From IMG/VR virus record IMGVR_UViG_3300046000_010924, positions 1 to 32,884 of that record: a stretch of 32,884 nt of DNA. One strand, given 5' to 3'. How positions within the stretch are numbered: position 1 is the stretch's first letter; every line of letters begins with the position of its first letter. Of the stretch, positions 8,083 through 31,552 are shown in pieces. The translations under genes and the position numbers were made by a program. Source of the stretch: a virus. The notes under the pieces were generated by a model. The model saw nothing but the letters and a program-made list of their open reading frames with translations. It was not told where the DNA came from and did not search any database.

Positions 8083-9255
8083 ATGGTATACCCTACGTTT
8101 ACGGTTAATACAAAAGCATTCAATATAGCATCTAACTACGGGTATTCCCCCTATTATGATATTGTATGGTCTTTTGATTATGCTATAAGCGGTAACAATA
8201 ATACTGAAGCTGGGTTTACCGTATTTATAATGGATAATAATTATATATTATCGGGTGGTAATTTTAATATTGATCTCGGTTATTCAGGACTTTCTTCTAA
8301 TAGTGATCAATCAAGCTCTTTAACCCCAGGGGTAAGTGGAGGTATAATTGCTGTAGGATTTGATACCACGGGATTATTTGCTGTATCAGCGCTTTCTGGA
8401 ACAAGAGTAATCCGCGATGGTATTGATGAGTCAGCTAGAATTCTTAATAGTGTTAGTATTCGTGATAAGTGGCCAGCTTATAGTTATAATACAAATAATT
8501 ACAATGTTGCTCTTTCAAGCTTAGATAGTTCTTTTAAGATTGTTGATGGTGAGCTAAATTATAAAACGATTCGTGCAAGACTAGGTAATGTTGGTAGAAC
8601 ATTGTATGTTGATTATAGGAGTACTCCTGACGATGATTTTAAATCCCTACTAGTAAAAGATGTAAATTTAGATATTACAAGTAATACTATGTATAAAGTT
8701 GGAGCATCTTTTGCGACACCTATAAGTAGTAACGATCCTAATAAAATAGGTACTATATATTTTAGAAATTTCCATACAGAGGGTAATTTTTTATCTGGTG
8801 AGGTAACAACAATAGTAAATACTACTTTGAGTGGGGTAAAAATCTTACCTGTCAGACCTATAATTCCAACAATTCCTCCTTCGCGACCACCTATACCTCC
8901 ATTGGAGGAATTTGTAATACCTATTGTAGATAATAATGCTGTATACAGTATATGCCCCACACACACAATAACTTATGCAAGAATAACTTCGGTTGATAGT
9001 CTTACAGGTATTACAGAAGATAGATACAACTTTGGATATAGATTGAGCGTATTTGATGGTACTAGTGCAATAAATGTGAATTTAACTCGTAAGGATATAT
9101 TTAATTATGTATCTTCTGACAGTAAGTATAGAATATATAAAGATATGTTTTGTGAGTACTGGAAATTATCATCTGCAACATCATTATTTTTAAATAATAC
9201 TAGCTTTGTACCGATTGGTGCATATAGTACAACCATTTCTGCAAAATATATATGA
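8083..9255 (+). CDS. L-type-lectin-like virion protein
   Basis: A 390-residue protein. The N-terminal ~230 residues resemble a legume/L-type lectin jelly roll: [37 protein letters not shown], then [19 protein letters not shown], matching the family pattern in which a flat glycine-rich strand leads into a conserved Asp of the metal/sugar site. A Pro-rich hinge ([19 protein letters not shown], ~residues 263-283) joins it to a C-terminal ~100-residue beta domain. The likely role is binding host surface sugar, or linking fibre parts. It overlaps the giant adhesin by four bases (ATGA), so the two are probably made together. The lectin fold is inferred by eye; sugar binding is not shown. Confidence 0.65.
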
Positions 9256-12200
9256 TACATGATAATATAAATGTTGATATTAAACTTAAGGGTCAATATA
9301 GATTCTCCGTAAAGGATAATGATACTATTGTATATACGTCACCTTGGTGTAATAATACTATTTTATCGTGTGGTTTAGTAGATCTTCACTATTACGACAT
9401 ACCTAACATTATTAGTTATTTAGATATAGGGTCGAGTAGTAGTCTGCCCGGTGTATCAGGCTACGGACTTTCAGGTGTAATAGCTGAAACGGAATTTAAA
9501 AACATATATAGAGATATTGTCGAATCGTATCAAGATACGATTTCAAGTAAAGTCTATATTGCATCTTTTTCTTCTGGTAAAGCTCTAGATAATATTACGA
9601 TAAATGAATTCGCTATTAAGCGGACTGAAATTAATAGTTTTGCTCGAAATACTCTCACTTCAACATATAGCTTATGCGCAGGTCAAATAATTAACTTTGA
9701 ATATAAACTGACAGTTAACTGGTCATCTTATTTTACAGGTAATTTACCTGTAACAGGTAATAGTTTAGGTTATATATATACAATACCTATTATATCTACA
9801 ACATATAATATACCCTACGATAGTTTATATTATAATAATAATATGCTTTTTTTACTAGGCAATATATATAATTCTGACGGAAGTTTTCTTAATCGTCTAC
9901 CTAATATGGGTGATGACTATCCTGTGTTTTTTGATTGGGGTATTGATACATCAACATTTTCTACATATACACCAAATGAAGTAAGTAGTTCTATAGATAA
10001 TATATTACGCAGATATACAGTGAATACTTGCTATAGTGGGATAGCTTGCGAACCTAATAGTGAAGTTCATAGTAATATAAAAACAGCCTTAATTGTAAAA
10101 GATGGAGATATAACACAACGAACCAATAAGTTTAACGCTACACGGTTTGTCTTTCCACTTACTGTATATAATAGTATAGTTGTGTGTCCCTCCACGTTAC
10201 CTAGCAACACTTCTCTTAATAATATAACACTCGGCTATAGCTATACATGGGGAGAGTGTGATACAACATCGTCGGAGCCACCGCCTACTCTCACTATTAG
10301 TAGCGTAGATATAAGCAATACTGACGGTTACCCATCTGAAGATTGTTATGATCCTGCAACAGGTGAACCGTATGATACAAGAGTTATGTTCAGTGTAACA
10401 ATGTCAGAAATAGGTTACCCTGGAGAATATGATTTAGTTGTTAGTGTAATGAGTAATTCTTCTAATTCTGAAGGAACAACTGTAATACAGCCTGGCGAAA
10501 CTAAAGACTTTACATTGTATGTAAATTGTATACCTAATGAGGTAATCACTATTCAAGCTCAAGCTACACACAAAATAACTTCTAGTAAGGTAACTAATAT
10601 TGCTATCGAAACAGCTTACGCACTTAACCTGTGTACTCCTACACCCACACCTACACCAACAATAACTCCTACACCAACAGTAACTCCTACTAATACCCCT
10701 ACTCCAACAGTAACACCAACAGTAACTCCTACTAATACAGTAACACCAACAATAACTCCTACTAATACAACTACACCAACTGTAACGCCTACTAATACAC
10801 CTACACCAACAGTAACGCCTACTAATACACCTACACCAACAGTAACGCCTACAGTAACTCCTACTAATACACCTACTAATACACCTACACCAACAGTAAC
10901 GCCTACAGTAACTCCTACTAATACACCTACTAATACACCTACACCAACAGTAACACCTACAGTAACACCTACAGTAACGCCTACTATAACACCAACAATA
11001 ACTCCTACTAATACACCTACACCAACAATAACACCAACAATAACACCAACAATAACTCCGACTAATACACCTACTAATACAGTAACACCAACAATAACTC
11101 CTACTAATACTCCTACTAATACTCCTACTAATACTCCTACTAATACAGTAACACCTACAGTAACACCTACAGTAACACCTACAGTAACACCAACAATAAC
11201 TCCTACTAATACACCTACTAATACACCTACACCAACAGTAACCCCTACAGTAACGCCTACAGTAACTCCTACTAATACTCCTACTAATACAGTAACACCA
11301 ACAGTAACCCCTACAGTAACCCCTACAGTAACGCCTACAGTAACCCCTACTAATACTCCTACACCTACAGTAACACCTACTATTACACTTACACCAACAG
11401 TAACGCCTACCCTCTTCCTATCACCGACACCTACCCCAACAATAACACCTACTATTACACTTACACCAACAGTAACACCTACTAATACACCTACAGTAAC
11501 GCCTACAGTAACGCCTACAGTGACTCCTACTAATACTCCTACTAATACAGTAACACCTACAGTAACACCTACTGTAACACCAACAATAACTCCTACTAAT
11601 ACACCTACTAATACTCCTACACCTACAGTAACACCAACAATAACACCAACAATAACTCCTACTAATACTCCTACTAATACTCCTACACCAACAATAACAC
11701 CAACAATAACTCCTACTAATACTCCTACACCAACAATAACACCAACAATAACACCAACAATAACTCCTACTAATACTCCTACTAATACTCCTACACCAAC
11801 AATAACACCAACAATAACTCCTACTAATACTCCTACTAATACTCCTACTAATACTCCTACTAATACACCTACACCAACAATAACACCAACAATAACTCCT
11901 ACTAATACTCCTACTAATACTCCTACTAATACACCTACACCAACAATAACACCAACAATAACTCCTACTAATACTCCTACACCTACAGTAACACCTACTG
12001 TAACACCAACAGTAACACCTACTGGATTAGGTATCGAAACCATCTGCGTCGAGTACACTCAGGCAACGTATGACCCATATGTTACCACGGAGACGCAATT
12101 CAACATGTCTGGGAATGTTGTCATCGGATACACCGGCACAGGTCCTGGAGGCACGTTCACACTCGACTATAACATCTATACATCATATTGGGAGCTGGAC

Positions 12201-12782
12201 GATCCTAATTATGTATCCAGCTATTACTACAACGACGGCTCTTCACCTGATGGTTATTATATTCCTGGCGCGTTTCCGCCTTACTACGCCACTGTCACCA
12301 GCGGCGCATGCCCAACACCAACACCTACACCAACAGTAACTCCTACACCGGTAACTCCTACACCAACACCAACATCAGTAACTCCTACACCAACACCAAC
12401 AGTTGGCAGTCTCCCTGAAACAATCTATGTCAGACACTATCAATATCCTGATGGTCCGGAGACAGACTTTACGATGACGTGGGTCGTCAACGGCCCGTTT
12501 GGTGGGATGATTGGCGCAGCTACGAACGATTATTACGAAGGTAGCTTCTTCAACGGCACTTACGACGAGACATTCTGGCTGGCATGGTATCTTAACGCGA
12601 CCTACGTGGAAACATATTATGATGAAGAATTAGGGGAATATGTGCATGTCTATACACCCGGATGGCTTTTCTACTACGGTCCGGGTGTAGGTAGTGAAGA
12701 TGCAACAAACCCAGCTGGAACGTATGATGATGTATATCAGCAGAATTATCGTATGATCGTCTCCCTCACTCCGTTTCCTTAA
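9252..12782 (+). CDS. Giant Thr-X-stalk adhesin (tail fibre-like)
   Basis: A 1176-residue protein with clear modules. Residues 1-~330 form a head domain ([20 protein letters not shown], then [11 protein letters not shown]) like the N-termini of phage fibre proteins. Residues ~345-455 look like an Ig-type beta sandwich. Residues 462-924 are a stalk with Thr at nearly every second position, alternating with Pro, Val, Ile or Asn. Then come a module of ~95 residues ([20 protein letters not shown]), a second short Thr-Pro linker, and a final module of ~126 residues ([20 protein letters not shown]). The two C-terminal modules look like diverged copies of each other. There is no signal peptide. It is probably a long extensible adhesin whose tips bind the host. 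Its start overlaps the lectin gene's stop. Confidence 0.75.
10635..12023 (+). repeat. In-frame minisatellite encoding a (Thr-X)n stalk
   Basis: 1389 bases built on a six-base unit (Thr codon plus Pro, Val, Ile or Asn codon), usually paired into twelve-base units such as actcctactaat, acacctacagta and acaccaacaata. One interruption near 11408-11425 (LFLSP) breaks the pattern. The sense strand is very poor in G. Synonymous wobble (act/aca, cct/cca/ccc, acg) changes along the array, so blocks with the same wobble reveal recent block duplications. Such an array should change length by slippage or recombination in whole codons. Confidence 0.95.
12024..12782 (+). other. GC-richer C-terminal cassette of the adhesin
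   Basis: The two tip modules (12024-~12308 and ~12405-12782) use C-ending codons (gtc, atc, tac, gac, ggc, acc) and acg/gcg far more than the rest of the gene, which prefers ATA, AAT, TAT and GGT. One sampled line (12121-12180) is 50% GC. The T-P linker between them (~12309-12404) returns to the local wobble pattern. This suggests tip modules acquired from another genome and joined through the low-complexity stalk. Confidence 0.6.
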
Positions 12783-21706: not shown

Positions 21707-22366
21707 TCACAGTTTACCTTTCCACTTGTTTAGGAACCATTTTTGACCCTCATTAAACTCAGGAGTGAATTCCCTTAATCCTGGTGATGCATGAGTAATC
21801 ATGATATCTGATACGCCGATTTTTAATTTTTCCTTATGGCAGCTCAAAGAAAAATCCAAATCATAGTGGTGAAATCCGGCTGGGTTAGATTCATCAAATC
21901 TAACTTTCTCAAATACTTTACGACTCATTGCCATAAACACACCATCAATTAGAACAACCCGTTGAGGGTAAGGTCCAAAAGCAGTCATTGATTTTTGTTT
22001 TTCATTACCATGCGATACAGCGCCGTGAAGCTTTCCGCCACCAAATCCGCCACCCATTAAATGCCATAATGCTGGTTCCTCTAGTTTACATTCTGTTGTA
22101 CCCGCTACACCGATTAAATCAAACTGTTTAAACAGTGTAGGTAATTTATATGATAGGTCAGATTCAATAATAATATCATCATGACAGAGTATTAAATATT
22201 CTGCCTTTTCCTGTATTGCGAAATCAATAGCCTTATTATAAATGACAGGTAGGGGTTGTGTATTATTTTCCTTGAAGAAGAATTTCTTGCGCATAGAGCG
22301 ATCACTATATAATAATGTATCTTTCTTTGATCCTTTTGTTGCTGTAAAATAAAATGTATTTTTCAT
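21707..22366 (-). CDS. GT-A fold glycosyltransferase (family 2-like)
   Basis: A 219-residue protein. The nucleotide-sugar binding part shows PVIYNKAIDFAIQEKAEYLI, then LCHDDIIIE, where HDD takes the place of the DxD metal motif. Further on, VVLIDGVFMAMSRKVFEKVR, then RFDESNPAGFHHYDLDFSLS, gives the acceptor-side motif with a candidate catalytic Asp, a pattern of the StrF-like family 2 group. There is no membrane segment, so it acts in the cytoplasm. Its ATG overlaps the amidotransferase stop by four bases, so the two are coupled. It could modify DNA bases, a phage protein or host polysaccharide; the sequence does not decide. Confidence 0.75.
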   Translation of the reverse strand: MKNTFYFTATKGSKKDTLLYSDRSMRKKFFFKENNTQPLPVIYNKAIDFAIQEKAEYLILCHDDIIIESDLSYKLPTLFKQFDLIGVAGTTECKLEEPALWHLMGGGFGGGKLHGAVSHGNEKQKSMTAFGPYPQRVVLIDGVFMAMSRKVFEKVRFDESNPAGFHHYDLDFSLSCHKEKLKIGVSDIMITHASPGLREFTPEFNEGQKWFLNKWKGKL

Positions 22367-23028
22367 AAAAATAAAAACGGTGAGTTAGTTTCAAATGTAT
22401 CAACGAGAGTCCATGTTTTAAAGTCTTTAAGCATCATGATAACACCTTCCGGTAATAACCTGAAACCTTCACCTCCAAGTGTAGATATATCACCATTATC
22501 ATTATAGTGTAATACTGATCCCTGCCTTATAATATAAGTATCGTTCGAATCTGTATCAATTATACATAGTGCAAACGTACCTCTAAGCTTACTCAGTACT
22601 TTTTTAATAATACCAGGTGCTGAACATTCACCATTACACTCTTCAGTAAAGAATTGTAAAAGATTAGGAATAACAGACGTATCCACTTCATTCACATCCC
22701 AAGGTGTATATTGGGCTTTTAGTTCTTTATGATTTGTTAATACACCGTTATGTACGACAGACCATGATAACGATTCAAACGGGTGAGATGTATCGTATGA
22801 CCAAGAACGAGCTGCAGATGTTGGAGCTTGTACATGGCCTATATAATAGTCACACCGCTCGTCTAATTCAATTTGGTTAAAATCGAGTGTACCTTGTTTT
22901 TTAATAATTTGCTGCTCATTACCATCATACAGACAGAGAACTCCACTAGCAAAATTACCACGAGGTAGATTACCATCGTATAATACTTCAAATTTTGATA
23001 CATTGTTAGATCCTACGATTGCGCAAAT
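22363..23028 (-). CDS. Class II glutamine amidotransferase, apparent ATT start
   Basis: Read from ATT at 23028, the protein has 221 residues and starts (M)CAIVGSNNVSKFE, with the Ntn nucleophile Cys at position 2 as in GlmS (MCGIVG). Other family motifs follow in order: LPRGNFASGV (like YRG..S.G), GHVQAPTSAA (like GHTRWATHG), VVHNGVLTNHKEL (the HNG glutamine site), VDTSVIPNLL and RGTFALCIIDTDSNDTYIIR. The frame has no ATG, GTG or TTG before residue 112, and the GTG at 22695 would drop the whole active site. It releases ammonia from glutamine; no second catalytic domain is fused, so a partner is expected. QueC, 1.5 kb upstream, is one candidate, and the coupled glycosyltransferase is another. 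Confidence 0.8.
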   Translation of the reverse strand: MCAIVGSNNVSKFEVLYDGNLPRGNFASGVLCLYDGNEQQIIKKQGTLDFNQIELDERCDYYIGHVQAPTSAARSWSYDTSHPFESLSWSVVHNGVLTNHKELKAQYTPWDVNEVDTSVIPNLLQFFTEECNGECSAPGIIKKVLSKLRGTFALCIIDTDSNDTYIIRQGSVLHYNDNGDISTLGGEGFRLLPEGVIMMLKDFKTWTLVDTFETNSPFLFL

Positions 23029-23052
23029 AAGTCAGCTTCTCACTCCTTTCAT
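23029..23052 (-). promoter_or_regulatory. Leader with six-codon minigene in frame with the amidotransferase
   Basis: On the - strand an ATG at 23052 reads MKGVRS and stops at TGA (23034-23032); after one codon (CTT) the amidotransferase ATT follows in the same frame. AAAGGAG inside it is the best Shine-Dalgarno-like sequence in the window, but it lies 14 bases before the ATT. Confidence 0.45.
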
Positions 23053-23062
23053 ATATATTTTA

Positions 23063-23380
23063 TTATAAATAATCTCGTCTCTCCTTTGGCATTCTCCAGA
23101 AAAAATCGATTTGACCGGTTAAGTTATTTTTAGCTAATGCATAAGATGGATATTCAATACCATCAGGCATCATATACCAGGATTTACGTTCTTTTTTGAC
23201 TTTTTCAATACCTAAGTTTTTTAGTGTGTTAGATCCAAGACCTTTTATTTTAAAGAGGTCGTTGTTCGAACGAAAAGGTTGCATTGCTACAATACGTTCC
23301 GCTACTCGTTTACCTATTCCGGGTAGATTACATATACCCGTATAAGACATTTCGTTAAAATCTTCCCAATTTAATTGCAT
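23063..23380 (-). CDS. Helix-hairpin-helix (ComEA-like) DNA-binding protein
   Basis: A 105-residue protein. Two tandem helix-hairpin-helix motifs: GICNLPGIGKRVAERIVAMQ (~16-35) and FKIKGLGSNTLKNLGIEKV (~43-61), each with the h-G-h-G hairpin that contacts the DNA backbone without sequence preference. The C-terminal ~45 residues (WYMMPDGIEYPSYALAKNNL onward) form a separate aromatic-rich domain. A role in DNA repair, recombination or processing is likely. It is first of the unit that leads to the amidotransferase and glycosyltransferase, and divergent from the late gene at 23400. Confidence 0.75.
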   Translation of the reverse strand: MQLNWEDFNEMSYTGICNLPGIGKRVAERIVAMQPFRSNNDLFKIKGLGSNTLKNLGIEKVKKERKSWYMMPDGIEYPSYALAKNNLTGQIDFFWRMPKERRDYL

Positions 23381-23384
23381 CTTC

Positions 23385-23392
23385 TATAAATA
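23385..23392 (+). promoter_or_regulatory. T4-type late promoter box TATAAATA
   Basis: An exact TATAAATA lies between the divergent HhH gene and the ATG at 23400; the predicted +1 (~23398) leaves a two-base leader. Confidence 0.7.
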
Positions 23393-23399
23393 AGTATAT

Positions 23400-24506
23400 A
23401 TGAGTTCTTTTACTAATCTACTCTCAAGATTATCTTTTATTAACGAAGCTGTTTCACCGCTCGATACACTTATTCCTGGCTTTCAAAAACAAGCAAGAGG
23501 ATTAGCTGCAGCAAAGGGAGCATCTGCTAGCACACGTGAGGGAAAGTTAGCATTATTAACTATTCTATACGATCTTGATATTATTGACGATTCCGTTGTA
23601 AGAATGTTTAAGAATGACCCATCTGTTAGTAGATTAGTTGCGTATTTTGAGCAAAATGGTATTGCAAAGGCTATTAAAGCTCGTAAAGATGATATCCAGA
23701 ATTATATTAAAGATAAGTTAGAAGATAAAATTAGCTTTACAACTGGTAACAGAACGGATGCTGCAATGCAACGTATGGAAGTTAATAAATTAAATACAGA
23801 ACTTAAGGCTGCTAAGAAGGTAGCTCGTATCGAACGTAAAAAGGATACCGCCGCTGCAATGAGTGCTGTTAGTCAGGTAGTTGATAACTATGCTGATTTG
23901 GTTGGATCAATACAGGGGTCATATAGCGAGGACTATATGATCGAACTTGTTGCTGATAAAAGTAGTGATCTTGGCGATATTAACAATATTGTTAATTATC
24001 TCAAGCAGTTCGTTAAAGAGTCTGATATAGACGTGGAAGGAAGAAGTATAGATGCGACATTCTCAAAAGATTCTAAACTAGGTAAAATTATAACTCGTCT
24101 TGGTGCTGAAAAAGTAGAGTCACAGATTTCAGACGATCTAGAAAAATACGGTGGTGTTGGTGTTGTTATTCATACACCTGATATACAAGCTAAACCTAAT
24201 ATGAACGGTAATATAGGTCAAGAAGAAGAAGAGGGGTACGAAGAAGAAGCTGAAGATGAAGAAGGTTTTACTACTACAGTAGAAAGATTAGAAGAGTTTG
24301 GAATATCTACCCCGAGGTATACTAATGGCAAAATACCCGATATAAAAAATAGTAATACAGTGACGGAGGGATCAGTTCTTAACTATATGTCTGAACAAAG
24401 AGTTTACTCATCTCCAAAGCCGATCGTTGAATCAATAAGCTTTAGAGACAAGTTTAAACCACAAACTTCTAAGCAGTTAGCTGAATTAAAAAGTTACGGA
24501 ATGTAA
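23400..24506 (+). CDS. Probable late virion protein, candidate internal head protein
   Basis: A 368-residue, charged, mostly helical protein standing alone on the + strand with its own late promoter. The N-terminus MSSFTNLLSRLSFINE followed by AVSP is an amphipathic leader ending in IxE before Ala, matching the T4 prohead-protease capsid-targeting pattern (for example the IAE-A site of T4 internal proteins). Residues ~110-155 are Lys/Arg/Ala-rich coiled coil, and ~270-295 is a Glu-rich acidic run (QEEEEGYEEEAEDEEGF). The end is basic. Its stop overlaps the converging QueC gene by 13 bases. No recognised family; the head location is inferred. Confidence 0.6.
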   Translation: MSSFTNLLSRLSFINEAVSPLDTLIPGFQKQARGLAAAKGASASTREGKLALLTILYDLDIIDDSVVRMFKNDPSVSRLVAYFEQNGIAKAIKARKDDIQNYIKDKLEDKISFTTGNRTDAAMQRMEVNKLNTELKAAKKVARIERKKDTAAAMSAVSQVVDNYADLVGSIQGSYSEDYMIELVADKSSDLGDINNIVNYLKQFVKESDIDVEGRSIDATFSKDSKLGKIITRLGAEKVESQISDDLEKYGGVGVVIHTPDIQAKPNMNGNIGQEEEEGYEEEAEDEEGFTTTVERLEEFGISTPRYTNGKIPDIKNSNTVTEGSVLNYMSEQRVYSSPKPIVESISFRDKFKPQTSKQLAELKSYGM

Positions 24507-25243
24507 TTACATCCTTTGGCTTCGTAAATCCCGTCAAGCTTTTCCTGTTGCAGATACTTAATGGGATCTCTGTAATTTGCTGAAATAAACCCAGCTAATC
24601 TTAAACTACTCGCTGGAGTTGTAGCATCTGCTAAACCATCTTCTCTATTACTATAACATGTCCATGTGTCTCCGAAGTTTACTCCTAATTCTACACCCTG
24701 CCTTACGATATCAGCCTTTGACAGGGAGAGCAATGGAGCTCCCACGCGGATTCTATGTTGTCTGTTAAGTGATATTAGTTCATTCATCTTGTCAACGAAC
24801 GAAAAATCTCCGTCCCAGTAGCCGGCTAGAGAGTCAACTTGTGCGGCACCATACCACACTTCATCTGCTTTTAGACTCTCTGCATAAGCACAGCAGATCG
24901 TAACAAACATCTGATTTCTAAACGGTACATATGATACAGGTTGCGCATCACCTGCAATTTTACTAATATCTGGGTTATCAATCCCTTCATTAGTAAGAGA
25001 TGAGGTAGGTGAGATATCTTTTAAATATGTTACATCTAATGTCTTGTTTGTGACAGTAATATTAGGATATTTTTCCTTTATAAGTTGATACTGAACCCCC
25101 ATACACTCTAATTCCCTACTATGTCTCTGACCGTAATCAAATGTTACTGTATGAATTTCACTATAACCTTGAGCTGCTGCCATGTATAGTAATACTGTAC
25201 TATCCGCTCCTCCACTAAATGCTAAAACTAATTTTTTACTCAT
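24494..25243 (-). CDS. queC: QueC-like PP-loop protein lacking the zinc-binding cysteines
   Basis: A 249-residue homologue of 7-cyano-7-deazaguanine (preQ0) synthase. The ATP PP-loop SGGADS is at 10-15, followed by TFDYGQRHSRE, the VSYVPFRNQMF motif (usually VPGRN), LLSLSKADIVRQGVELGV and TWTCYS. In standard QueC the last stretch runs C-x8-C-x2-C-x2-C and binds zinc. Here only C196 remains; the other three positions fall on Asp, Thr and Ser in ADATTPASSLRLAGF. The end of the family fold (RLAGF then ANYRDP) is still clear. It may still make preQ0, or use a related ligase/amidotransfer reaction with the separate class II amidotransferase. Phage QueC proteins elsewhere serve 7-deazaguanine DNA modification. 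Confidence 0.85.
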   Translation of the reverse strand: MSKKLVLAFSGGADSTVLLYMAAAQGYSEIHTVTFDYGQRHSRELECMGVQYQLIKEKYPNITVTNKTLDVTYLKDISPTSSLTNEGIDNPDISKIAGDAQPVSYVPFRNQMFVTICCAYAESLKADEVWYGAAQVDSLAGYWDGDFSFVDKMNELISLNRQHRIRVGAPLLSLSKADIVRQGVELGVNFGDTWTCYSNREDGLADATTPASSLRLAGFISANYRDPIKYLQQEKLDGIYEAKGCNYIP

Positions 25244-25299: not shown

Positions 25300-25926
25300 A
25301 TGAATAAGTATTATGTTTATATGTATATTGATCCTGAAACTCGTAAACCGTTTTATATCGGTAAAGGTACAGCTTCTAGAGCTTGGGCGTTTACCGGTCA
25401 CGATCATAATAAATGGCTAACTATAAAAATCAATACAATACGCGATAAAGGTTATAAAAGTAAGGATTTTGTTATTATTATGGATGATAATTTACTTGAA
25501 TCAGAAGCTTTTGAACAAGAAAAATTACTTATCGAGCAGTATGGTAAGAAAATGGATGGTGGTATTTTGTTTAATATTAACGATGGGGGCGTACAGCCAC
25601 CATCACAAAAAGGTAAGACGTGGAAGTTATCTGAGCAATCTATTATTAATATGAAAGCTAGTTGGACACCGGAACGTAGAGAGAAAAATAGTATTAAATT
25701 TAAAACAATTGAACGAACAGCAGATTGGTGTGCTAAAATATCTGCTGGTAAGCGAAAAGCAGTATTTGATCAAATAGTATTTGAGCAATATGTATTATCT
25801 AATTATAAATTAAAAGATATCATAGATATGATGAACATTACCTATGATATCTTTAGAGATCGCGCGCTTTTAACTTATAACACTGTTAAGTTTAGAGATA
25901 TAAAGAAATTAATTAATATCCTCTAA
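25300..25926 (+). CDS. GIY-YIG homing endonuclease (free-standing, Seg-like)
   Basis: A 208-residue protein. Residues 4-24 carry the GIY-YIG pattern as YVYMYIDPET then FYIGKG; the catalytic Arg (SRAWAF) and Glu (SEAFEQEKLLIEQYG) follow, and FNINDGG closes the nuclease domain. Residues ~100-130 (PPSQKGKTWKLSEQSIINMK) look like a NUMOD3-type DNA-binding repeat, and ~155-205 is a helical DNA-binding end. It nicks or cuts a target in related phages and is copied by repair. It sits between queC and uvsX and overlaps the end of uvsX by 18 bases, so its insertion did not break a gene. Confidence 0.88.
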   Translation: MNKYYVYMYIDPETRKPFYIGKGTASRAWAFTGHDHNKWLTIKINTIRDKGYKSKDFVIIMDDNLLESEAFEQEKLLIEQYGKKMDGGILFNINDGGVQPPSQKGKTWKLSEQSIINMKASWTPERREKNSIKFKTIERTADWCAKISAGKRKAVFDQIVFEQYVLSNYKLKDIIDMMNITYDIFRDRALLTYNTVKFRDIKKLINIL

Positions 25927-27763: not shown

Positions 27764-30700
27764 TTAGAATCCAAATAAATCATCAAGTTCTGTTTGCACA
27801 TTATCAGTTGGCTTTCTAATACGCCAATTTACAGAGTCATAAAAACGTTCAATCGAATTAAACAAGATCTTTTCAAACATCAGTACATAGTCGATTTTAA
27901 ATAGATTTCTAAACTCAGCATTATAATCATACTTGAAGCCGATAGTTGTAATACCATATTTGTTTTGCTTTTCTACATATAGATATCTAATTTTATCACC
28001 AGAGGTAATAGTTTCACTTTTACCGTCAATCTTTGACATAATTAAATTATGGTAGTATGCTGACTTAACGTGAATAGGCATACCTTTAGCTACTAAAAAC
28101 TCTTTACACTGTGATGCATATTTTTCATAACCTTTTACACCCATAACAAACGCAATTTCTTCCGGTGAGAGACTCTTAAACACATCAAACGTTTCATTAA
28201 GTAGTTTATTAGTCTGATTTTGAGATTGTGTTAACAACATTGTCTCGATAATCTTCTTAGCGTATGGTTTAATAGCATTAGGCATCGTAGTACGTACAAC
28301 TTCCACACCTACATACTTAAACTTATCAACCTTTAGACCTTCATCATCAAGAATATGCATTACATAACGCTTTTTCTGCAAAAATACCGCAACATCTGCA
28401 ATACACTCACGTTTAAACACGAATCTACTATCTTTCGTGAGCAAATTCTTTTTAGCCCATAAAGTAATACCTATATTAAGATAATCTTCAAGATCATTTA
28501 CGGTTTTATAAAATTTTTCCGATATAACCTCACCATCCTTAAGAGGAACCTTGTCCTTTATGCATCCTAATGAAAAGTAGCACGAGTCTGTATCAGAGTA
28601 TACCCAACTCTCATTAAGAGTATGTGAATCCGTCACATTAAAGTTAGTAGTAAGATAGTTTTGTAGTAGTTTACCGGCTTGTTTGATAACAGCTTGACCA
28701 GTTAGCGTTACAGACGATGCAATATCATCATCGCCAATAGGAGCTTGCTTATTACCCATATATCCATAACAACTATTAACAAGAATCTTAATAACCATTT
28801 GTTTAGTATTAAGTCTTTCTACTTCAAACTGTATCTTTTCATAGTCAGCGTCAGACTTGTTAAGTGTTTGTAGCTTTTTACGAACTTTAAATAGTTCTTC
28901 CTTAATAATAACACGTTCTTTGTAATAGTGATCGAGGAATTCAGGAATAATACCCTGCTTCTTTTGTGTAAATAGGAAGCCTGCTTTAGTTATAGCTAAT
29001 TCTTCTTGCTTAATAAAGGAACTAAACTTTTCTTTAGTTAAATTAAACGATTTACCTGATATATGATGTACAATAAAGTTATTATCATCAGTCTTCTCTA
29101 TCTTACCCACCTTTGTTTCAGGAGATAAATTAAGTGCAATCATAACATTCGGATATAGTGAGTTAGCATCGAAAGATACAACGTTTTCTTTAAAGCCATG
29201 CTTAGGTTCAGCTACATAGGCGCCAGGATTTTTACCTTCTGCTTGAGGTCTTACAAAAGTTGAAATAACTTCCTTACGCTTACGCGCTTTAATAGTAAGC
29301 GCACCATTAATGACAGAAATAGTACCCATAGCACCTTCAAGAGTAGTTAAACCTACATAAGAAAGCATACGTAAAAGCGAAACATACTGTAACTTTTCTT
29401 CAAGTTTAACAAGTAGATTAACATCTTGAATGTTATATTTAACAAATGTATCCCAATCCGTTTCAGATAAAGTAGCGAGGTTAATATCACCATAATCTAC
29501 CTTACGTTCATTAAGTTCCACCTCACCGATTGCATCTAGTTTATAAGATTCTCTTAGTCTTAAGCAAAATCGCTTGTAAATATCAAGATAGTCAATGCAG
29601 GCTACACCACTAATATAGTAACGCTTGACTTCTCTACCAAACTTACCTCTCATAGTACGGTCATATACTTGACCTACAGGTGAAAGTCGATTTACATACT
29701 CTTGACCAAGTAACCTTTCTATACGGTTAATAATATAAGGAATATCAAACCCCTCACAATTGTGTGTATGTATACCGTTACATAAGAATGTATGTGTTTC
29801 TGTTGTTATATCGTACATTTGCACCTCTCTACCTGTCTTGGTAATAGGTAATATCCTAACTACATATTCATCAGCACCACCATACATCCATTGTATTTTA
29901 TTAGACGCAGTATTTTTAATAGTTCGATATTTTAAATTGCTTAGTTTGGTTTTTCTATGTGTATGTCTGATATATAAATTTTCTAAAAATTTCTGATTTA
30001 TATTATTACTATTTACAGTAATATAATTCTTATGCAAACGCGATTGAACACCATTCCATAGTAGTAATTCTTGAAGGTCATTTAAAAATTTATATTTAGT
30101 GCAGTCGTAATTACATAAAGAAATACCATTCTGCTCAATCCAGCCATCACCGTCGATCATACCACTAAAAAATGCCTTGAATTGAGAATAAGATAATCTA
30201 GATAGTAGTTCTACATCTGGTTGCTTAGAGTCACTTTTGTTATAAATTAAATTGTGCAATACACGAGCTTTATTATTATTACATATCTGCTTGGTATATG
30301 AAATAAACTCTCTATTATTAAACCTGGTTATACACTCAGTAAATGGTTTTAGATTTTTGTTATGCTCTTTTGCAAACGCTGCTGTATAACTTGCGATTAA
30401 ATCGCTATATTTACTTGTCAACCTATAACACTGCTTACTCTTATCATATGTACCATCTGTAAATATAAATCCCATTAGTTGTAGTATCTCTAAAGATATA
30501 CTCTCCTTTTTTCTTATAATAAAATTATCACAAACACGTCGCGTTGTAGTAAAGTTAAAAATATAACTATCCTGATCCTCATCAACTATGACGTCTCTAA
30601 GTGCTGGCACGCTTTCTACAAATTCTTGATAGTTTAAGTCACTATTATTATTAATACCTAGATGTTTGACAGCATAGAAATCATAAACAACTTGATCACG

Positions 30701-31552
30701 CTCAATATCTGCTACACTTAATTCTACAATATTTTTAGTTAAGGTTTTAAAATTTTTATAATCTGTCTTTTTTCTTCTATAAACCATAAATCTATGATCT
30801 TTAGAGCACAGAACACTACTACCATGCTCCGTCTTAATCTCGTACTCAGACTTTATACCTGTATTCATAAAGTTATTTATACAAATACCATGTCTTTTAA
30901 GAGGCTTATTCTCGAAGTTATTCGATAAATCCTTAATTTTAACTATACGATCCTGTAACCATACATGTTGATTTTCTTCTATACAGTTCCAACCACTAAG
31001 AATATCAGGGTAGTCGGATTCTATATACTCGATAAATTTAATAAACAGATCCCGCTCATTTTTGCAGTGATAGTATACTACATTATCAGCAGTATTTGTA
31101 TATGGAGCTAACCCAAAAGTATTAAACTTCTTTGTAGTTGTATCATAGCATGTAATAACATTTACAGGGTGAGTAGGGTCTTCTGTATTCGGAAAGCTGC
31201 TAGGTGAAAAAGTTTCGATGTCAAAAAATACAACCTTTAGTGGGTGCTGAGTAAACTCAGGCGTTTCATTCTCACGCCAAAACGTCTCTAGCAAGTATTG
31301 CTGAACTGTTGGAATATTCTCAAACAACCTACGATTACCGGAATCAGCAATGTACTTAGTTCGATCGTATTGTGTATTAAATGAGCGCTTTTTAACCTTT
31401 GTACCGTAAATAGATACCTTATCTCCGTCAGGTGATTCGAGATACAAATAAGGATTAAACGTTACATCACGAGTGACACGTCTACCTTCATCATCCCAGG
31501 TAAAAAGCTTGATTGATTGATTTCGACTATTATATACTGCGTTTCGATACAT
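27764..31552 (-). CDS. 43: Family B DNA polymerase (T4 gp43-like) with an in-frame intein
   Basis: A 1262-residue precursor; removing the 409-residue intein leaves 853 (T4 gp43: 898). Proofreading motifs: Exo I FFDIETF (D111, E113); Exo II GWN/CEGFD (N189 joined to C599, D603), split by the intein; Exo III YNIQD (Y706, D710). Polymerase motifs: A SFDANSLYPNVM (D795), B KILVNSCYG (~922-930), C YSDTDS (985-990). The last residues, ELDDLFGF, fit a clamp-binding tail as in RB69 and T4. All catalytic residues are present. The gene follows an interrupted glycosyltransferase gene, from which it is separated by a promoter containing a large inverted repeat. It is the replicative polymerase. Confidence 0.95.
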   Translation of the reverse strand: MYRNAVYNSRNQSIKLFTWDDEGRRVTRDVTFNPYLYLESPDGDKVSIYGTKVKKRSFNTQYDRTKYIADSGNRRLFENIPTVQQYLLETFWRENETPEFTQHPLKVVFFDIETFSPSSFPNTEDPTHPVNVITCYDTTTKKFNTFGLAPYTNTADNVVYYHCKNERDLFIKFIEYIESDYPDILSGWNCIEENQHVWLQDRIVKIKDLSNNFENKPLKRHGICINNFMNTGIKSEYEIKTEHGSSVLCSKDHRFMVYRRKKTDYKNFKTLTKNIVELSVADIERDQVVYDFYAVKHLGINNNSDLNYQEFVESVPALRDVIVDEDQDSYIFNFTTTRRVCDNFIIRKKESISLEILQLMGFIFTDGTYDKSKQCYRLTSKYSDLIASYTAAFAKEHNKNLKPFTECITRFNNREFISYTKQICNNNKARVLHNLIYNKSDSKQPDVELLSRLSYSQFKAFFSGMIDGDGWIEQNGISLCNYDCTKYKFLNDLQELLLWNGVQSRLHKNYITVNSNNINQKFLENLYIRHTHRKTKLSNLKYRTIKNTASNKIQWMYGGADEYVVRILPITKTGREVQMYDITTETHTFLCNGIHTHNCEGFDIPYIINRIERLLGQEYVNRLSPVGQVYDRTMRGKFGREVKRYYISGVACIDYLDIYKRFCLRLRESYKLDAIGEVELNERKVDYGDINLATLSETDWDTFVKYNIQDVNLLVKLEEKLQYVSLLRMLSYVGLTTLEGAMGTISVINGALTIKARKRKEVISTFVRPQAEGKNPGAYVAEPKHGFKENVVSFDANSLYPNVMIALNLSPETKVGKIEKTDDNNFIVHHISGKSFNLTKEKFSSFIKQEELAITKAGFLFTQKKQGIIPEFLDHYYKERVIIKEELFKVRKKLQTLNKSDADYEKIQFEVERLNTKQMVIKILVNSCYGYMGNKQAPIGDDDIASSVTLTGQAVIKQAGKLLQNYLTTNFNVTDSHTLNESWVYSDTDSCYFSLGCIKDKVPLKDGEVISEKFYKTVNDLEDYLNIGITLWAKKNLLTKDSRFVFKRECIADVAVFLQKKRYVMHILDDEGLKVDKFKYVGVEVVRTTMPNAIKPYAKKIIETMLLTQSQNQTNKLLNETFDVFKSLSPEEIAFVMGVKGYEKYASQCKEFLVAKGMPIHVKSAYYHNLIMSKIDGKSETITSGDKIRYLYVEKQNKYGITTIGFKYDYNAEFRNLFKIDYVLMFEKILFNSIERFYDSVNWRIRKPTDNVQTELDDLFGF
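29759..30985 (-). mobile_element. LAGLIDADG-containing intein in the polymerase Exo II motif
   Basis: Residues 190-598 of the precursor. The first residue is Cys (CIEENQHVWLQDRIVKIKDL, block A); block B is TEHGSSVLCSKDHRFMVY; the end is MYDITTETHTFLCNGIHTHN with the His-Asn pair, followed by Cys+1 of the host protein. Between them are two LAGLIDADG motifs, LQLMGFIFTDGTY (D366) and FKAFFSGMIDGDGW (D467), both with the acidic residue, so splicing and homing should both work. Base composition matches the host gene. Confidence 0.95.

Follow-up and report, generated by a model that had tools for sequence, protein, structure and literature searches.

Why should a phage carry a stand-alone class II glutamine amidotransferase (GAT) beside QueC, an enzyme of 7-deazaguanine synthesis? 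The question is raised by a 32,884-base IMG/VR phage fragment (IMGVR_UViG_3300046000_010924; hereafter the window, meaning the whole stretch analyzed), in which the two genes lie on the same strand, 1.5 kb apart, as a first-pass annotation had reported and as Pfam/NCBIfam and structure matches confirm. That annotation suggested that the archaeosine enzyme GAT-QueC might here be encoded as two genes. We favor a different role as the probable one: the GAT is the glutamine-dependent, ammonia-supplying subunit of QueC in the conversion of 7-carboxy-7-deazaguanine (CDG) to 7-cyano-7-deazaguanine (preQ0), serving a preQ1-type DNA modification. The features on which the argument turns are the following:

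22363-23028, minus strand: stand-alone GAT, 221 aa (Pfam GATase_6, alignment of 53 relatives, AlphaFold/Foldseek)
23029-23060, minus strand: leader of the GAT gene (sequence and start-region comparison)
24494-25243, minus strand: QueC (Pfam PF06508, E = 3e-49; motif table)
24599-24667, minus strand: zinc-site region of QueC (alignment with the QueC of VH7D, pf16 and 9g)

The GAT is consistently paired with QueC. Viral contigs were searched with the GAT alone, without the use of queC, and the 92 counted matches, less one bacterial GlmS, left 91 distinct relatives. QueC was present in the locus for 84 of them, i.e., for all with enough flanking DNA; it lay on the same strand in 84/84, upstream of the GAT in 81, and within 60 bp in 52, with a farthest gap of 3.5 kb. 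In the remaining seven, the contig ends within ~3.5 kb upstream. Because every testable locus, found without queC, has a same-strand queC, the nearness of the two genes is not a matter of chance. The GAT match in L004 ("Staphylococcus phage SA 1306 Kay"), which had no QueC, turned out to be a bacterial GlmS; on this GenBank contig, a complete GlmS gene lies among genes of bacterial appearance, and the contig is probably bacterial DNA. The KVP40-type GAT occurs in 51 phage records, with QueC annotated beneath or beside it in most, and in KVP40, nt-1, VH7D, 6E35.1a and pf16 it abuts queC under the label "hypothetical protein." Distant GATs are mostly found in cassettes with FolE, QueD, QueE and QueF, to which DpdA2 or a 260-aa protein (described below) is added. 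The two very probably belong to one 7-deazaguanine pathway, since the GAT accompanies QueC across widely diverged phages, in cassettes that also encode FolE, QueD, QueE and a transglycosylase; this part of the first-pass annotation is well supported. A scan of a prokaryote genome collection with the GAT alignment found no relative. No paper naming the stand-alone GAT was found in a partial literature search, a recent review of phage 7-deazaguanine being among the papers outside its reach.

The family assignments of the GAT and QueC are firm. The GAT matches GATase_6 above the gathering score (E = 4e-10), a profile of 53 relatives matches solved GlmS and PurF structures (best E, 5e-11), and the AlphaFold model (pLDDT 93) has the GlmS glutaminase domain as its top Foldseek match (E = 4.5e-14). 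The signature of the window GAT comprises the catalytic Cys2, HVQAPT (65-70), HP (82-83), HNG (93-95), D116 and R168. Cys2 and HNG are invariant across the 53 aligned GATs, so that the N-terminal cysteine, the HNG oxyanion motif and the Ntn fold of class II enzymes are all present. The arginine that binds the glutamine carboxylate in GlmS (R73) is not conserved; it aligns with Gln67 in every GAT, within the motif HxQAPT. We claim the fold and infer the glutaminase activity.

The GAT gene appears to start at an unusual codon. No ATG, GTG or TTG is found at the 5' end of its open reading frame (ORF), and the codon preceding the catalytic cysteine is ATT (23028-23026), where most relatives have ATG. 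A class II GAT requires its catalytic cysteine directly after the initiator methionine, and an ATT start is therefore the simplest reading. Five of the 91 distinct GATs (in the window, L010, L024, L070 and L082), from several sub-lineages, have the ATT start, each with a purine-rich leader, and their sister genes use ATG. In the window, a Shine-Dalgarno-like purine-rich AAAGGAGTGA lies at 23049-23040, ahead of the ATT. Most ATG-started relatives are without this leader, and their start falls just past the stop of the upstream helix-hairpin-helix (HHH) gene.

The QueC of the window is a recognizable but altered member of its family. It scores 144 bits against TIGR00364 (NCBIfam), just below the cut-off of 150. 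By comparison with canonical QueC motifs (PMC13329287), it keeps SGGxDS, YxQxHxxE, VPxRN, YWD and TCY, with equivalents of the essential Tyr131 and Tyr189. The C-x8-CxxCxxC zinc site is lost, as three of the four cysteines are replaced (D206, T209 and S212) and C196 alone is kept. The same holds for every QueC of the clade to which the window belongs (the window clade), in which three of the four cysteines are replaced and the other catalytic motifs are kept.

Further genes of the pathway are found in relatives of the window. Each of the seven window-clade contigs that extend over the region concerned has FolE, QueD and QueE. Two large contigs of the clade, G011 (105 kb; GAT 81% identical to that of the window) and G012 (122 kb; 71%), carry a second cassette encoding QueF, a 260-aa protein with the fold of tRNA-guanine transglycosylase (TGT), and formyltransferase-like and kinase-like proteins; the G012 cassette is near the major capsid gene. 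A third, more distant contig of the clade, G026 (185 kb; 46%), combines the GAT with QueF and the 260-aa TGT-fold protein. ESKSxKLY, which we take to be the NADPH-binding motif of the QueF reductase, is present in 44 of 45 QueF sequences, and preQ1 is therefore the expected product. The first-pass annotation had proposed a search for dpdA, queD, queE and folE: relatives have FolE, QueD and QueE (7/7) and, as candidate transglycosylase, the TGT-fold protein (three contigs), and the window fragment itself holds QueC and the GAT as its only 7-deazaguanine genes. The window phage presumably has QueF and transglycosylase genes outside its fragment.

The 260-aa protein is our candidate for the base-inserting DNA-guanine transglycosylase. 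Its model (pLDDT 95.7) matches tRNA-guanine transglycosylases in 50 of the 50 PDB matches listed (E from 6e-8; probability, 1.00), and Asp52, Asp83 and Asp210, invariant in the family including G011, G012 and G026, presumably correspond in their order to the catalytic aspartates of TGT, judging from known TGT residues. The family is phrog_19058, which has no assigned function in PHROGs and no Pfam family. Among five long relatives examined first, profiles of PF01702, DpdA2 and the 9g DpdA detected no transglycosylase; these contigs do not extend to the second cassette, and the family diverges too far for such profiles. Profile-profile comparison gave no sequence link of the family to DpdA1 or DpdA2, and only the fold search linked it to TGT. 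The formyltransferase-like protein encoded beside it may formylate preQ1. The TGT-fold family is compact; examples from phage preQ0 cassettes, with the neighboring formyltransferase-like genes, are the following:

L169:9880-10683 and L163:19330-20000: TGT-fold protein (phrog_19058)
L169:10680-11237, L164:121-693 and L129:5017-5559: formyltransferase-like protein, encoded next to the TGT-fold protein

Comparison of the window with contigs carrying the TGT-fold gene gave no DNA overlap, although some of these contigs share metagenomes with window-identical ones. No partner genes of the QatC/Cap9 type (protein deazaguanylation) were noticed, in the course of analyses not aimed at them.

Building on the observed enzyme families, folds and invariant residues, on the QueC pairing in each testable locus and on the other genes in relatives, the following mechanism can be proposed. 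Phage FolE, QueD and QueE would make CDG, and QueC, with ATP, would convert it via the 7-amido form to preQ0. The nitrogen donor of QueC is ammonia (PMC13329287), and because QueC is the constant partner of the GAT, supplying it with ammonia is the simplest GAT role. The GAT would split glutamine and pass the ammonia on, the two polypeptides acting as a physically associated preQ0 synthase. In the window clade, QueF would reduce preQ0 to preQ1, the TGT-fold protein would exchange guanine for preQ1 in DNA rather than tRNA, and the formyltransferase-like enzyme may decorate the preQ1 amine. The modified base should shield phage DNA from host nucleases. The more specific version, in which a virus-specific GAT family makes a zinc-free QueC a two-subunit glutamine enzyme and phrog_19058 installs preQ1 or formyl-preQ1 in DNA, is tentative and falls slightly short of an even bet.

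Several points weigh against ammonia supply by the GAT. Bacterial QueC uses ammonia without any GAT. Many phage loci have QueC and a TGT-fold gene with no GAT found, and whole-record searches gave no GAT match in eight of ten TGT-fold-type records. Since bacterial QueC and these phage loci do without it, the chemistry does not require the GAT. Glutamine use is likewise not assured, because every GAT has glutamine at the position where GlmS binds the glutamine carboxylate through an arginine. The lost zinc site of the window-clade QueC also counts on this side, contact between GAT and QueC is a prediction, and the evidence beyond these two genes is drawn from relatives with 46-81% GAT identity.

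The alternatives differ in the product they assign to the pair. In a split archaeosine synthase, the GAT and QueC would turn preQ0, free or in DNA, into the amidine G+, as the fused GAT-QueC of phage 9g, together with DpdA, puts dG+ in DNA (PMC6884629). In the DNA of nt-1, a phage with the GAT and QueC in which no QueF exceeds the cut-off, the modified base is mostly dPreQ0 (0.11%), and dG+ (0.02% of G) and dADG are present as traces (PMC6884629). The nt-1 authors, however, point to an ArcS homologue as the source of dG+; the stand-alone GATs form one clade (SH-aLRT 95) apart from GlmS, PurF, AsnB and the fused GAT-QueC of 9g and PSTCR7, in a quick tree with long branches; glutamine replaces the conserved arginine; and the GAT is retained where a reductase-type QueF makes preQ1. 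Vibrio phage 6E35.1a, carrying a transglycosylase, QueF, QueC and the stand-alone GAT, has dPreQ1 at ~15% of dG by mass spectrometry (PMC12028318). We therefore do not favor the two-gene archaeosine enzyme of the first-pass annotation and regard it as unlikely, though the stand-alone GAT may have a role in trace G+ formation. A zinc-less QueC that, with the GAT, halts at the amide (ADG) or yields another amide would account for the zinc cysteines missing from the whole window clade, but the remaining catalytic motifs are kept, QueF, which depends on the nitrile, is present in the same genomes, and zinc-less QueC clades (the window and L195-L262) span loci with a GAT and loci lacking one, the latter including some with the TGT-fold gene next to QueC; such an outcome is very improbable.

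The target and the pathway itself could also be read differently. If preQ0 or preQ1 were made for tRNA, the TGT-fold protein would be a tRNA enzyme, in line with its structural likeness to such enzymes, and the nucleic-acid target in the window clade is a prediction. This is improbable, as DNA modification has been measured in phages whose related GAT cassettes include DpdA2-type genes (nt-1 and 6E35.1a). The first-pass annotation had also allowed that the GAT serves a sugar pathway; it would then act in amino-sugar synthesis with the glycosyltransferase coupled to it, its nearness to QueC being coincidental. The best solved relatives of the GAT are indeed GlmS glutaminase domains, these phages carry many sugar genes, and the glycosyltransferase gene overlaps the GAT gene in the window clade. 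Yet the GAT has no sugar-isomerase domain, lies outside the GlmS branch of the tree and clusters with no sugar-specific family, and distant cassettes without the glycosyltransferase gene retain QueC, which makes a sugar role highly improbable.

The genes adjoining the pair are the following:

21707-22366, minus strand: family 2 (GT-2) glycosyltransferase (PF13712, E = 1e-12)
23063-23380, minus strand: HHH ORF upstream of the GAT (Pfam HHH_3, E = 1e-8), kept in most of the window clade
23400-24506, plus strand: gene of unassigned function between QueC and the HHH ORF, conserved in the window clade

The HHH ORF and the glycosyltransferase coupled to the GAT are as first described, the GT-2 gene beginning within the GAT stop (ATGA); the plus-strand gene between QueC and the GAT had been passed over. 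The GT-2 gene adjoins the GAT, on its downstream side, throughout the window clade and in no distant GAT cassette, and a sugar step on the base by this enzyme is speculation. Promoter and terminator scans around these genes gave nothing informative, and no tRNA was found. Elsewhere, the window has a T4-like replication module with a DnaB-type helicase, UvsX, a gp32-like single-stranded DNA-binding protein and DNA polymerase. Between QueC and UvsX, a GIY-YIG-like ORF (25300-25926, opposite strand) is shared by some relatives only. The DNA polymerase ORF (27764-31552) exceeds that of most relatives by ~400 aa and contains an intein-like insert whose end reads HTHN|C, and in a relative (L010:4953-6065), the DnaB-type helicase gene is split by a 370-aa ORF. 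A long protein with PTPT/NTPT repeats is encoded at 9252-12782, where there is also a long antisense open frame.

Our reading offers a testable function for a gene left "hypothetical" in the well-studied phages KVP40, nt-1, 6E35.1a and pf16 and in many metagenomic phages, and suggests that phages obtain nitrogen for base hypermodification via glutamine rather than free ammonia. It also cautions that not every GAT and QueC pair is an archaeosine pathway, and it singles out the functionally unassigned TGT-fold family as a possible transglycosylase of many aquatic phages that carry preQ0 genes. Among known systems, the fused GAT-QueC of 9g and Crenarchaeota (archaeosine) likewise unites a class II GAT and QueC, in phages within a FolE/QueD/QueE/transglycosylase pathway. 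In contrast, the polypeptides here are separate, the GAT is of another clade, in which HxQAPT stands in place of the arginine-bearing motif, QueF is often present and QueC is zinc-less. The Vibrio phages KVP40, nt-1 and 6E35.1a and Pseudomonas phage pf16 share a stand-alone GAT of the same clade; there it directly follows a zinc-bearing QueC in a compact cassette with FolE and a DpdA2-type gene, whereas the window clade has dispersed genes, a zinc-less QueC, a different TGT-fold protein and a GT-2 gene after the GAT. Canonical bacterial QueC (PF06508 cluster 1) shares the ATP-pyrophosphatase motif SGGxDS, YxQxHxxE, VPxRN and the essential tyrosines with the window QueC, which differs in lacking C-x8-CxxCxxC and in having a GAT partner. 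The archaeal two-subunit GMP synthase follows the same principle, in that one polypeptide acts as the glutaminase and supplies another, the ATP-pyrophosphatase, but with a class I amidotransferase and another synthetase, so that the relation is one of analogy and not of membership.

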